Positions 36,989 through 61,169 of a stretch of 64,000 nucleotides of DNA are shown here, one piece after another (the stretch's first letter is position 1; every line of letters begins with the position of its first letter). The DNA comes from Oceanicaulis sp. GTDB lineage: Bacteria > Pseudomonadota > Alphaproteobacteria > Caulobacterales > Maricaulaceae. The stretch spans positions 1 to 64,000 of the forward strand of contig CP157796.1 in the NCBI GenBank assembly GCA_040112665.1, read 5' to 3'. Under the pieces are notes generated by a model. The model did not search any database. It was not told where the DNA came from and saw nothing but the letters and a program-made list of their open reading frames with translations. The translations under genes and the position numbers were made by a program.

Positions 36989-38095
36989 ATGTCTCACAAC
37001 AGTTTCGGCCATCTGTTCCGCTTCACCAGCTGGGGTGAAAGCCACGGGCCCGCGATCGGCTGCGTGGTCGACGGCTGTCCGGCGGGGCTCGCGCTGACCG
37101 AAGCCGACATCCAGCCCTATCTCGACAAGCGAAAGCCGGGCACGTCGCGCCACGTCACCCAGCGCCGCGAACCCGATCAGGTGAAGATCCTGTCCGGCGT
37201 GTTCGAGGACGAGCGCACAGGCGGCCAGGTCACGACAGGCGCTCCGATTTCGCTGATGATCGAGAACGTCGACCAGCGCTCGAAGGACTATTCAGACATT
37301 CGCGACAAGTGGCGGCCGGGGCACGCAGATTTCACCTACGACATGAAATACGGCGTCCGCGACTATCGCGGCGGCGGGCGGTCGAGCGCACGGGAGACCG
37401 CGATGCGGGTGGCCGCGGGCGCGATCGCGCGGAAGGTGCTGGGCTCCGAAGTGTCGGTGCGCGCTGCGCTGATCCAGATCGGCCCGCGCCGGATCGAGGC
37501 TGAACGCTGGGACTGGAACGCGATTGATAACAACGACTTCTTCTGCCCTGACGCTGAAACCGCCGCGCTCTGGGCCGAGGACATGGACGCCGCGCGCAAG
37601 TCCGGAAACTCTTTTGGTGCAATCGTCGAGTGCCGGGTTTCGGGCGTTCCGGCGGGCTGGGGAGCGCCGGTTTACGGCAAGCTGGACGCCGATCTGGCGA
37701 GCGCGATGCTGAGCGTGAATGCGGCCAAAGCCTTTGAAATCGGGGCGGGATTCGCCGCCGCGGCGATGACCGGGGCGGAGGCGGCCGACGAGATGCGGCG
37801 CGGCCCTGACGGCGGTCCTGAATTTCTGTCCAACCATAACGGCGGGGTGCTGGGCGGCATCTCGACCGGTCAGGACATCGTCATGAGGGTGGCGATCAAG
37901 CCGACCAGCTCGATCCTGACCGAGCGGCGCACGCTGACGAAAGATCTCGAAGAAACAACGGTTTCCACCAAGGGCCGCCACGATCCGTGCGTCGGAATCA
38001 GAGCCGTTCCGGTGGTCGAGGCGATGGCTGCGCTGGTGCTCGCCGATCACAAGCTGCGCGCCGCCGCGCAACGTCCGGCGAGCGAGCGCGATTAG
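36989..38095 (+). CDS. aroC: Chorismate synthase
   Basis: A 368-residue FMN-dependent chorismate synthase, the last step of the shikimate pathway. The three family signatures are [18 protein letters not shown], the segment [20 protein letters not shown], and [36 protein letters not shown] is the classical N-terminus. Complete. It follows the DnaJ-like gene on the same strand and precedes murD2 by 72 bp. Confidence 0.97.
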
Positions 38096-38167
38096 AAAAA
38101 AGCGGGGACAGACCTCGTCGGCTTCGTGGTGAAACACGGCCGCTTCGTCATCGAAAAAGGGCGTTTC

Positions 38168-39487
38168 ATGTCCGATCGTCTTCAGGATCGTGGTGACATC
38201 CTCATCTGGGGCCTCGGCCGCGAAGGCCGGGCCGTGCTCGACCTCGTTCTGGCCGAAGCGCCGGACGCGGCGATCACGATCGTCGACGCCAAGGAACCCG
38301 CCGGCCTGCCCCAGGGCGTGCGCTGGATCGCCGAAGACGATCTCGAGGCCGCCGTGCGCGCCGGCCGCAATCCGCTCATCGTCAAAAGCCCCGGCGTCAG
38401 CCTCTATGACCCGCGCCTGGACGCCGCGCTGAAGGCCGGCGCGGCGCTGACCAGCCAGACCAATCTGTTCTTCGCGCGAAAGCCGAAGACCCAGAGCGTC
38501 TTCGCGGTCACCGGCACCAAGGGCAAGTCGACGAGCTCGGCCCTGCTGCATCACATGCTGCGCGGCGCCGGCGTGAACGCCGCGCTGGCGGGCAATATCG
38601 GCGACCCCGCGCTGCTGGCCCCGCGCGAGGCGGAGACGGTGGTGCTCGAGATGTCGAGCTATCAGATCGCCGACCTGGTGCATGCGCCTGACCGCTTCAT
38701 TTTCCTCAATCTGTCGAACGATCACGCGCCCTGGCACCGGGGGGTGGAGCGCTATCGCAGCGACAAGGCGCGGCTCGCCCGGCTCGATCCCAACACCGCC
38801 GGGGTGATGAACGCCGCAGATCCGCGTCTGATCGAGATGTTCGGCCACCAACCCAACCGGGTCTGGTTCGGCCGCGAAGACGGGTTTCACGCCCGCGACG
38901 GCGCGGTGGTCTACAAGAATGAGCGCTGGGGCCCGATCGCCGCCCTGCCCGGCGGCCATAACGCGCTCAACGCCTGCGCGGGGCTCGCGCTGATCGACAG
39001 CCTGGGCCTGGACGCCAGGGCCGCGTTCGAGAGCCTGTCGAGCTTCAAGGGCCTGCCGCACCGGCTTCAGACCGTACACGAGACAGGCGGCGTGATCTTC
39101 GTCGACGACGGCCTCGCGACCACGCCTGAGGCCTGCGTTCATGCGGTCAGCGCCTTCGCCGGCCGGCCCGTCGCCCTGCTTCTGGGCGGCGAGGAGCGCG
39201 AGCAGGACTACGCCTGGCTCGCCAAAGAGCTCGACAAGGCCGACAACCTGGCCGCCGTCATCTGCCTGAAGGACAACGGCCCGCGCATCGCCGAGGCGCT
39301 CTCCGCGACCCGCCATGCGGCGATCACGCAAGCGGTCCCCGAGATCGAGGATGCCGTGGCAGCGGCTTTCGACGCGGTGAAGACCGGCGGCGTGGTGCTT
39401 TTGAGCCCCGCCGCACCGAGATGCTCGGCCTATCAGAGCTTCGCCGAGCGCGGCGCGGCGTTTACTGCGGCCGCGAAGGCGCTTTAG
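38168..39487 (+). CDS. murD2: UDP-MurNAc-L-Ala--L-glutamate ligase (MurD2)
   Basis: A 439-residue Mur ligase. An N-terminal Rossmann-like domain (LIWGLGREGRAVLDLVL) leads into the ATP loop TGTKGKST (115-122), then EMSSYQIADL and NLSNDHAPWH as in MurD-type enzymes. It is assigned to MurD2, which adds L-Glu instead of D-Glu, because it stands beside murL; sequence alone does not separate the two specificities. ATG at 38168 is chosen behind AAAAAGGGCG; an in-frame GTG lies 14 codons upstream. The stop overlaps the murL stop by 4 bp, tail to tail. Confidence 0.85.
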   Translation: MSDRLQDRGDILIWGLGREGRAVLDLVLAEAPDAAITIVDAKEPAGLPQGVRWIAEDDLEAAVRAGRNPLIVKSPGVSLYDPRLDAALKAGAALTSQTNLFFARKPKTQSVFAVTGTKGKSTSSALLHHMLRGAGVNAALAGNIGDPALLAPREAETVVLEMSSYQIADLVHAPDRFIFLNLSNDHAPWHRGVERYRSDKARLARLDPNTAGVMNAADPRLIEMFGHQPNRVWFGREDGFHARDGAVVYKNERWGPIAALPGGHNALNACAGLALIDSLGLDARAAFESLSSFKGLPHRLQTVHETGGVIFVDDGLATTPEACVHAVSAFAGRPVALLLGGEEREQDYAWLAKELDKADNLAAVICLKDNGPRIAEALSATRHAAITQAVPEIEDAVAAAFDAVKTGGVVLLSPAAPRCSAYQSFAERGAAFTAAAKAL

Positions 39488-40818
39488 GCCCCCGCCGCCT
39501 CGGCGACCGGCTCGGGCATGCGGTGTTCGGACCGCGCGTCGAGCGATCTGCCCCAGGTGTGCTGAAGCTCCGAGAGGTCCCAGCGCTCGGTCAGCCGGTC
39601 CTTCACCCGGGCGATCAGCGGCGCGTCGCGCCAGCCCGGCGCGGCGGAAAGATGGGCGAGCGCTGCGGCCACCTCTCGGGTCTCGCCCACGCACTCCCAG
39701 GGTTTCGCGCCGGTGAGCCCGGCGATCTCGACGAGGTGATCGAGATTGGCCTCGTCGTGCAAAGGCCGGGACTGGAATATCTCCGCATGCCGGTCGACCG
39801 GCAGGAAGGGCGCCAGCAGCACGGCGGTGTAGACGCATTTCGCGCACTTTCCGCACCAGCGCCGCCCCTCGGGCAGGGCGTTATCGCCTGCGAAGACGAA
39901 ATTGCGGTTGCAGCTCGCAAAGATCGGCAACGCGTGCTCGGCGCGGGTGGCGAGATAGTGCGCGGTCCAGAGTTCCGAGACCGGTCGCAGCACCGAGAAA
40001 TAGGAGAATCCGGCCCCGGCCGCCTCGAAGCCGGCGCGCAGCGCGTCCTCGAATTCGAGCGATTTGGAATACTGATGGTTCACCGCCGCGCCGCCTGACT
40101 GCATGGTCGGCTCGCTGGCCGCGCGCTCGTTGGCGAACACGACCCAGTCCAGGCCCCGCGCCGCGGCGTAAATCCCCAGCAGAGCCGAGTTGATCGCGGT
40201 GATCGGGATATGCCCGTTCAGCGCCTGGCCGGATTTCGAAATCTCGATCAGGCGCGCATCGATCGTGCGGCGGATCAGGATCACATCGGTCTCGCTCATC
40301 GTCTGGAGCCGGTCGCCGACCTTTTCAGACAGGATGACCGAGACCCGCTCGGCCTCGCCGCCGGCGCGGCGGACCAGATCGCTTGCCACGTGGCTGTCCT
40401 TGCCGCCGCCAAAGGCGGTGACCGCCCTGCGCCCCTCGCCCGGCGCGCCGCGCCGGGCCGGAGCGCGGTCGGCGGCGAGGCTCAGCGCGGGCGGGTAGTC
40501 GAGCCCGTTTCTCACATAGAACTCGCCCAGCCCCGGCCCGTAGGCGAGCAGCGCGACCCGTTCGGCCGCTTCGGTCAGAGCGAACCCGAAGCGCAGCGCG
40601 CCGGCAGGTTTCGCCTTGTAATAGCTCGTCCCGATCACGATTGCGGCGATCGCGGCCAGCGCCTCGCGCAGCTCGGGTTCGATGTCGGTGAGGCGCGCCT
40701 CTTCAGGAAACCGCACCGTCTCTTCGAAGCGGCCGAAGCCGGGAACCTCATAGCCGAAGCGCAGCGTGTTGGTGTCCGCCTCGAAGACAGGCGCGAACAG
40801 CGCGAACGGCTCGGTCAT
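39484..40818 (-). CDS. murL: UDP-MurNAc-L-Ala-L-Glu epimerase (MurL)
   Basis: A 444-residue MurL-type protein that inverts the terminal L-Glu of UDP-MurNAc-L-Ala-L-Glu to D-Glu in an ATP-dependent reaction, known from Xanthomonas. A PP-loop AFGGGKDSHVASDLV lies at about 135-149, and a Cys cluster CGKCAKC at 322-328. The N-terminal FEETVRFPE and the segment PITAINSALLGIYAA also fit the family. With MurD2 it bypasses the need for free D-glutamate. It is on the opposite strand to murD2, convergent, sharing 4 bp. Confidence 0.87.
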   Translation of the reverse strand: MTEPFALFAPVFEADTNTLRFGYEVPGFGRFEETVRFPEEARLTDIEPELREALAAIAAIVIGTSYYKAKPAGALRFGFALTEAAERVALLAYGPGLGEFYVRNGLDYPPALSLAADRAPARRGAPGEGRRAVTAFGGGKDSHVASDLVRRAGGEAERVSVILSEKVGDRLQTMSETDVILIRRTIDARLIEISKSGQALNGHIPITAINSALLGIYAAARGLDWVVFANERAASEPTMQSGGAAVNHQYSKSLEFEDALRAGFEAAGAGFSYFSVLRPVSELWTAHYLATRAEHALPIFASCNRNFVFAGDNALPEGRRWCGKCAKCVYTAVLLAPFLPVDRHAEIFQSRPLHDEANLDHLVEIAGLTGAKPWECVGETREVAAALAHLSAAPGWRDAPLIARVKDRLTERWDLSELQHTWGRSLDARSEHRMPEPVAEAAGA

Positions 40819-60152: not shown

Positions 60153-61169
60153 TCAGCGCGCCTCCGGCGCGATCCGTCCCACCGCGCGGTAGAGCACGGC
60201 CAGGACCACGACCCAGATCGCGAAGGCGGCGGGCACGGCGCCGTCTGGGCCTTGCGCTGCGACGAGGCCGGAAAGCGCGATGATCGCGGTCAGCCCGCCA
60301 TAGGCGAGCGCGACGCTGCCATGGCTCCAGCCCGCCGCGATCAGGCGCTGATAGGCGTGCTCGCGATGCGCGCTCAATGAAAAACGCCCGTGCCGCGCCC
60401 GGCGCAGCAGCGTCAGCAAGACGTCGGCGAGGAACACCAGGACGAACATCGGCGCGAGCCAGAGCGAGCCGGAAAATCCGTGGCCCGCCATGGCGAGCGC
60501 GCCTGCGGCGTAGGCGGCGCCTGTCAGGAGCGCGCCGGCGTCGCCTGCGAAAAGCCGCGCCCGGGGCGTGTTGAACGGCAGAAAGCCTGCGAGCGCGGCG
60601 GCGAGCACGGCGGCGATCAGATAGGTCGCCGCCACCCCCGCCACGAGCCCGGCCACGCACAGCGCCAACGAAGCAGGGATCATGACCGCGGCCATCATGG
60701 CGTCCGATCCGTCCATGAAATTGACCGCGTTGATCACCACGAACGCAAAGAGCGCGGAGCCCGCAAGCCCCGCCCAGAACGGCAGCTCGGCTCCGAACTC
60801 GAGCGTCAGGCCGAGCCGGGTGACGGGTCCGGCGATGACGGCGAGCGCGAGGCAGGCGGCGACGAACACGGCGAACTTCGCCCACTCGTCCAGGGTGAAA
60901 AGATCGTCGGCGAACCCGGCCGCGCAGAACACCGCACAGACCGCGAGAAGGCCTGCAAGCTCGGGCCCGGCGAGCGGCGTGGATGCGGCGAGCGTCAGCC
61001 CGGCGCCGAGCCCGGCCGCGATCCCCAGACCGCCTGCGCGCGGGGTCGGCCGTGCGTGGTTCGAGCGCGCGTTGGGCATGTCGAGCACGCCGGCCTTCAT
61101 CACCAGCGCAGCGATCAGCGCGGAGACCAGAAAGCCGGCGAGCGCGGCCGGGCCCAGCACGGCGATCAC
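60153..61169 (-). CDS. WecA/MraY-type phospho-sugar polyprenyl transferase (GT4 family)
   Basis: A 338-residue integral membrane enzyme with about ten TM helices that transfers a sugar-phosphate to undecaprenyl phosphate. Catalytic segments: GFADDLFTLDEWAKF, VINAVNFMDGSDAM, RLFAGDAGALLTGAAYAAG and the cytoplasmic loop SLSAHREHAYQRLIAAGWSH. The HREH loop fits the WecA/WbpL group better than MraY. It probably starts O-antigen or capsule synthesis. The ATG overlaps the ispE stop by 4 bp. Confidence 0.9.
   Translation of the reverse strand: MIAVLGPAALAGFLVSALIAALVMKAGVLDMPNARSNHARPTPRAGGLGIAAGLGAGLTLAASTPLAGPELAGLLAVCAVFCAAGFADDLFTLDEWAKFAVFVAACLALAVIAGPVTRLGLTLEFGAELPFWAGLAGSALFAFVVINAVNFMDGSDAMMAAVMIPASLALCVAGLVAGVAATYLIAAVLAAALAGFLPFNTPRARLFAGDAGALLTGAAYAAGALAMAGHGFSGSLWLAPMFVLVFLADVLLTLLRRARHGRFSLSAHREHAYQRLIAAGWSHGSVALAYGGLTAIIALSGLVAAQGPDGAVPAAFAIWVVVLAVLYRAVGRIAPEAR

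Follow-up and report, generated by a model that had tools for sequence, protein, structure and literature searches.

MurD2 and MurL in Oceanicaulis, with a murD in the division and cell wall cluster that lacks its ligase residues

The window analysed here, a stretch of 64,000 nucleotides (nt) from an Oceanicaulis genome (GCA_040112665.1, contig CP157796.1, positions 1 to 64,000), carries two convergent genes whose products resemble the MurD-type ligase MurD2 and the peptidoglycan epimerase MurL. The first, murD2 (38126-39487, + strand), is an open reading frame (ORF) of 453 amino acids with a GTG start and an in-frame ATG at 38168; murL (39484-40818, - strand) encodes 444 amino acids from an ATG. 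The question raised by the pair is how this cell obtains the D-glutamate (D-Glu) of its peptidoglycan stem peptide. An earlier note on this DNA had proposed a route through L-glutamate (L-Glu), and expected two routes if MurI and a classical MurD were also present and an essential pair if MurI was absent. Its naming of the two proteins, its description of a tail-to-tail pair sharing TTAG beside aroC and its view of MurL as a PP-loop protein are all borne out below. The genome search that it suggested was run: murI and a D-amino-acid transaminase were not found at the cut-offs used, and on the classical MurD the answer was a third one that the note had not foreseen. An intact ORF is present in the division and cell wall (dcw) cluster, but its active site is lost (such ORFs are called gutted here). 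The MurD2/MurL pathway is already known, and this genome is a new carrier of it; the new part is the gutted dcw murD, which lies outside the window.

Both ORFs of the pair are taken as real rather than chance because of their profile scores, 292.9 bits for MurD2 against TIGR01087 (MurD, cut-off 211.95) and 276.5 bits for MurL against NF041275. In a profile search of the whole genome, a single contig of 3,078,920 bases, MurD2 is the sole TIGR01087 match over the cut-off. The MurL match is full-length (residues 9-441, profile positions 14-442 of 447, E 3e-82), but lies far below the equivalog cut-off of 700 bits, which was set for Xanthomonadales MurL; in a draw of 200 genomes from the order, 22 carry MurL and none of these reaches it. 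On this basis, the window protein is classed as a MurL homologue and not as a member of the NF041275 equivalog.

No match to PF01177 (Asp/Glu racemase) was found in the genome, with 10 of 14 control genomes positive, and none to TIGR00067 (MurI). Within the 200-genome draw, TIGR00067 matches 140 genomes at E 0.001 and 93 over its cut-off, and none of the five that belong to the genus. The genome has two class-IV aminotransferases. One is IlvE (TIGR01122, 257.2 bits, cut-off 245.55), and the second scores 105.1 bits at best (NF006185). Both fall under the D-amino-acid transaminase cut-off of NF005209 (105.4 and 83.7 versus 320 bits), a value passed by 39 of 99 family genomes and by none of 11 genus genomes (best 172.8 bits). 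MurL is present in all 15 genomes of the genus sample, in which the window genome is G000. Because neither MurI nor a D-amino-acid transaminase over the cut-off was found, D-Glu probably comes from murD2 and murL alone, and the pair would hence be essential. Their role as a redundant second route is rejected for the window genome, where an intact classical MurD, MurI and a transaminase over the cut-off were not found. Elsewhere, MurI, D-amino-acid transaminase and MurL are scattered over the genera of family f1 and some genomes hold two, such as G003 with MurI and the transaminase together, so that three D-Glu routes seem to occur within one family. In f5, another family of the same order, those genomes of genera g23, g33 and g35 in which MurD scores as canonical and MurL was not detected also have no MurI over the cut-off.

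The dcw murD ORF lies on the same contig (G000:C1:1714972-1716249; L089:8973-10250), between mraY and ftsW. The frame is full-length, stays open over 425 codons and has AGGAG upstream and an ATGA end, which is probably also the start of ftsW. The genome search with TIGR01087 gave a trace of 21.4 bits at the dcw cluster; the ORF itself scores 32.4 bits against the cut-off of 211.95, and Pfam gives nothing over cut-off within it. The ORF is kept in 11 of the 15 genus genomes. In three others (G062, G088 and G096) the ORF is deleted and mraY is separated from ftsW by 40-53 nt, and in the last (G262, a fragmented assembly of 240 contigs) the dcw region runs into a contig end. The 11 ORFs were compared with 10 canonical dcw MurDs from sister genera whose loci were in hand. 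The P-loop GK[ST], E157, H183, K198, H301, R302 and K348 are gone in all 11 and kept in all 10, and K319 is gone in 10 of the 11. Aligned as profiles with hhalign, eight of the 11 ORFs match the 10 canonical proteins with probability 100 and E 2.8e-54 over 443 columns. The ORF is thus like canonical MurD (TIGR01087; Escherichia coli MurD, PDB 1e0d among other entries) in being collinear with it and in its mraY-ftsW position and ATGA end, and unlike it in lacking the P-loop and the other key catalytic residues. The ATGA end occurs in 11/11 genus ORFs, and likewise in the three canonical genes printed. The columns conserved among canonical MurDs of f1 are kept at 26/57 in the first 105 positions and then at 14/84 and 7/58, and the N-terminal domain is the likely retained surface.

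Selection on the ORF was measured as omega (the ratio of nonsynonymous to synonymous substitution rates) in six shallow pairs from two subclades, with a synonymous divergence (dS) of 0.5-1.2; the six share branches and hence are not independent, and deeper pairs, with saturated dS, were excluded. Because members of each subclade share the dead motifs, the divergence of the pairs probably postdates the loss. Omega was 0.151, 0.148, 0.163, 0.134, 0.163 and 0.246, with likelihood ratios of 87-180 versus omega = 1. The same pairs gave 0.106-0.125 for MurL and 0.021-0.038 for MraY (five pairs), and three unsaturated pairs of active MurD gave 0.034, 0.088 and 0.098. When four pairs were simulated under neutrality with two base compositions, 20 runs per combination, omega came to 0.64-1.34, and at least one copy acquired a stop in 149 of 160 runs. 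Since the observed values (0.13-0.25) lie so far from the neutral ones, the genus dcw protein is under purifying selection. The last third of the ORF is its least constrained part (omega 0.20-0.44 vs 0.08-0.26). An accident of high GC content is rejected, as a frame in random DNA of 75% GC would stay open over 450 codons with a probability of 0.002 and omega is far from 1. Another view is that the ORF is a decaying relic, held open only so that translation can run through to ATGA and ftsW, its residues being irrelevant. The ATGA end in all 11 ORFs, the deletion in three of the 15 genomes and an evolution faster than that of MurL and MraY all agree with this. However, coupling of this kind guards the frame and not the residues, and so does not account for omega below the neutral range; in addition, the deletion genomes place ftsW after mraY with no ORF between. 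We regard the relic as unlikely.

Gutted dcw murD ORFs also occur in f5, where 17 genomes within the 200-genome draw carry MurL. Open gutted ORFs are present in 12 of them (G110, G118, G122, G138, G150, G162, G166, G186, G190, G198, G231 and G252), and the gene is intact in one (G261), partly eroded in one (G206) and gone in one (G154); in the remaining two, with broken contigs (G194 and G235), murD was not found before ftsW. In G261 the dcw MurD is canonical in every tabulated motif and occurs in addition to MurD2/MurL (C132 and C229); with 4% contamination, this combination is possibly a two-route intermediate or a product of that contamination. Among 22 f5 genomes outside the MurL-positive list, 21 without detected MurL carry a MurD that counts as canonical by its score of 360-396 bits, and G239 (89% complete, no detected MurL) has a gutted ORF, which brings the f5 gutted set to 13. 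All 13 have lost H183, H301, K319 and K348, and retain G..GK in 13/13, Arg at R302 in 12/13, Glu at E157 in 9/13 and Lys at K198 in 2/13; G190 and G206, whose open frames continue upstream, entered this table with their C-terminal 470 and 475 residues. The f5 ORFs keep 4/57, 21/84 and 12/58 of the conserved canonical columns over the same three segments, by a reference set taken from f1 that disfavours f5. Across the two families, each of the 24 gutted ORFs has Gly in the H301 column, possibly a parallel change.

In the tree, the genus ORFs nest within the canonical MurDs of their own family (support 99/99). A single clade of gutted ORFs, and with it a single origin, is rejected by the approximately unbiased (AU) test (p-AU 0.0013, on 20 of the 24 gutted rows, without G118, G186, G252 and G239), so more than one origin is indicated under the model used. 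Several rows are flagged for odd composition, the f5 group is weakly supported (52/11) and branches are long. Loss of the ligase residues has accompanied MurD2/MurL at least twice in the order. The f5 remains bear on a further alternative, in which the dcw product has stayed active as an enzyme or a nucleotide-binding switch and would be a divergent ligase or ATPase of the Mur type acting on a different substrate. The G..GK of all 13 and the Glu at E157 of nine suggest that these proteins may still bind nucleotide, and one f5 pair (G150/G231) has an omega of 0.036 at dS 0.84, which resembles the value of an active pair; the four remaining f5 pairs, G206/G261 among them, are saturated. On the other side, the seven motifs are gone in every genus ORF, and the Gly at H301 is common to the gutted ORFs of both families. 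An enzyme of this kind is judged improbable, slightly more so than the relic.

The window MurD2, by comparison, has intact ligase motifs (GTKGKSTS, EMSSYQ, NDH, YRSDK and GLPHR), and in the alignment its Mur-ligase active site is complete (P-loop, E157, D182/H183, K198 and H301/R302 columns), with Leu in the K319 column and Arg in that of K348. Over 23 aligned MurD2 rows (that of G261 is absent from the table), the K348 column, which is the R358 position of Xanthomonas oryzae, is Arg throughout, and the K319 column is Leu in 20 and Ile in 3, with no Lys. These letters fit published effects, as R358 is important in X. oryzae MurD2 and K319T makes E. coli MurD accept L-Glu (PMC8788868). With X. 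oryzae MurD2 the window protein shares the Arg of R358 and the Pro of P433, but it does not have the specificity letters at two other positions, with Asp at E197 and Cys at F435 (PMC8788868). Because the E197 column is Glu in 12 and Asp in 11 of the 23 rows, and the X. oryzae F435L variant retained specificity (PMC8788868), the alignment indicates that these two positions do not define MurD2 across the family. An ordinary D-Glu ligase fed by a promiscuous transaminase or an unrecognised racemase, with MurL in another role, would draw on the two class-IV aminotransferases, on a third in most other genus genomes drawn (up to 173 bits, NF005209) and on the Asp at E197, as in E. coli MurD, but is very improbable given that none of the 11 genus genomes reaches 320 bits against 39 of 99 in the family, that MurL is in 15/15 genus genomes and that the K319 and K348 columns bear MurD2 letters.

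The explanation that we favour, and consider fairly probable as a whole, is that MurD2 and MurL have taken over catalysis of the MurD step. The D-Glu step of the stem peptide would proceed by ligation of L-Glu by MurD2 and the action of MurL, a chemistry drawn by analogy from X. oryzae and from the predicted fold; dcw MurD would then have lost its ligase residues while the polypeptide persisted as a non-ligase protein. Its parts are not equally firm. It is highly probable that MurD2 and MurL are the only D-Glu route found in the genome, so that both genes would be essential, which follows the condition that the earlier note attached to the absence of MurI, and its L-Glu route is supported as the likely chemistry. 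Because of the open frame, AGGAG, ATGA, the lost catalytic residues and purifying selection, it also appears likely that the dcw product has ceased to be a ligase, while the protein is probably still produced. More tentatively, it may have been retained for a function other than catalysis, of which a structural or regulatory partnership is the likeliest, with MraY, FtsW, MurG and MurE/F (the machinery encoded around it) or MurD2 as candidate partners. A published account presents MurG as an oligomeric scaffold (PMC8256705), which lends plausibility to a partner of this kind and says nothing on the dcw protein itself. A shade more doubtful is the general form of this idea, a second, non-catalytic function of MurD in the wall and division machinery for which two lineages independently kept the pseudoenzyme.

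Several observations weigh against this explanation. Residue-by-residue alignment of MurD sequences so diverged is uncertain, the ORF of G052 retains Lys in the K319 column, and the S415 column is Ser in the ORFs of G000 and G022, with the surrounding motif gone. Omega of the genus ORF exceeds the 0.034-0.098 of active MurD pairs, so the constraint on it is relaxed. The ORF is lacking in three of the 15 genus genomes and is also gone in G154 and in two Devosia genomes, so the protein is not needed everywhere. The site letters retained in f5 suggest that total loss of site function does not follow in that family, and may also be the reason why omega is low in G150/G231. The two families appear to retain different parts, so a shared function does not follow either. 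For MurD2, the Asp of the window at E197 is a further point.

MurL gave no match in Pfam and none in a sequence search of the PDB, and a published account describes it as without known conserved domains (PMC5808125). Among 280 MurL loci in named genomes, of which 80 were kept, the nearest 11 (60-65% identity) are from Oceanicaulis, Alkalicaulis, other Maricaulaceae and Alphaproteobacteria, and the remaining 69, mostly Devosia and Pelagibacterium, have 33-38%. An AlphaFold2 model built with 35 sequences has a predicted local distance difference test score (pLDDT) of 92.7 and a predicted template modelling score (pTM) of 0.92. With VIA-align 2, it matches QatC (9y02_B; Z 17.9, root-mean-square deviation 4.0 A, 311 residues) and QueC (3bl5_E; Z 13.6, 3.4 A, 188 residues), followed by Cap9 (9nto_B) at Z 12.9 and others at 9.2 and below; Foldseek gave E values of 1.4e-6 and, with 3bl5_A, 2.3e-4. 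GGGKDS and C303, C322, C325 and C328 are invariant among the 35 aligned rows. The model thus confidently predicts a PP-loop fold like that of QueC and QatC, with which MurL shares the GGGKDS loop and late invariant cysteines, but from which it differs in sequence (12-14% identity), in having its own substrate and in epimerisation. QueC activates a carboxylate at the expense of ATP. Such chemistry would suit the published formation of AMP by MurL and the acyl-adenylate proposed for it, and the predicted fold is compatible with ATP-dependent, one-way epimerisation. The fold is also shared between this peptidoglycan epimerase and QueC-like anti-phage proteins, here QatC (9y02_B) and Cap9 (9nto_B).

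Plastid RNA polymerase contains a MurE-like part, and a MurE-like chain (8w9z_N) was among the PDB matches. In it a Mur-ligase fold serves a structural purpose, as suggested for dcw MurD, but it is eukaryotic, MurE-derived and located in a transcription complex. The pathway itself was described in X. oryzae (XOO_1320/XOO_1319; PMC8788868), and genomes listed as carriers include Devosia, Pelagibacterium and Parvularcula (PMC8788868; PMC5808125). As in X. oryzae, a MurD-like ligase and a MurL homologue occur here in a genome with no recognised D-Glu-forming enzyme (PMC8788868). In contrast, the parts of the X. oryzae account that were consulted make no mention of a gutted dcw MurD (PMC8788868), and no report of one was found in the titles and abstract openings of the literature searched, a coverage that most subscription journals lie outside.

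Antibiotics are directed at Mur ligases, and these enzymes are suspected to act within complexes. Whether MurD also has a role beyond catalysis is difficult to test in cells that depend on its ligase activity. With catalysis moved elsewhere and the polypeptide under selection, the dcw protein allows this question to be asked directly, and the carriers, if the explanation is true, would be separation-of-function mutants, made by nature, of an enzyme that is otherwise essential. Ordered by the state of dcw murD, which is intact in G261, partly eroded in G206, gutted in others and deleted in G062, G088, G096 and G154, the genomes may represent steps in the replacement of such an enzyme.

At the junction in the window, the stop codons of the two genes overlap in TTAG (39484-39487, both strands), as read from the sequence: TAG of murD2 is at 39485-39487 and TAA of murL, on the opposite strand, at 39484-39486. 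The pair lies beside aroC (36989-38095). The four-base overlap occurs in four of the 15 genus genomes (G000, G004, G022 and G265), while elsewhere in the genus the spacing is a 10-nt gap in one and a 61-nt gap in three, and a convergent murD2 adjoining murL was not found in seven, one of them the fragmented G262. In the other six (G044, G264, G263, G034, G072 and G080) murL and murD2 are not convergent neighbours, and in the Alkalicaulis genome G266, which is probably identical to G044, they are ~42 kb apart. The window genes converge, whereas murD2 and murL of f5 and Devosia are on one strand. A meaning for the overlap is rejected on its presence in just these four genomes; it reflects how the genes are arranged locally and does not characterise the pathway. 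Elsewhere in the window, 60261-61052 (- strand) gives a second, weak MraY-family match (32 bits), of a type likewise found in 15/15 genus genomes; its product is perhaps a WecA-like transferase.
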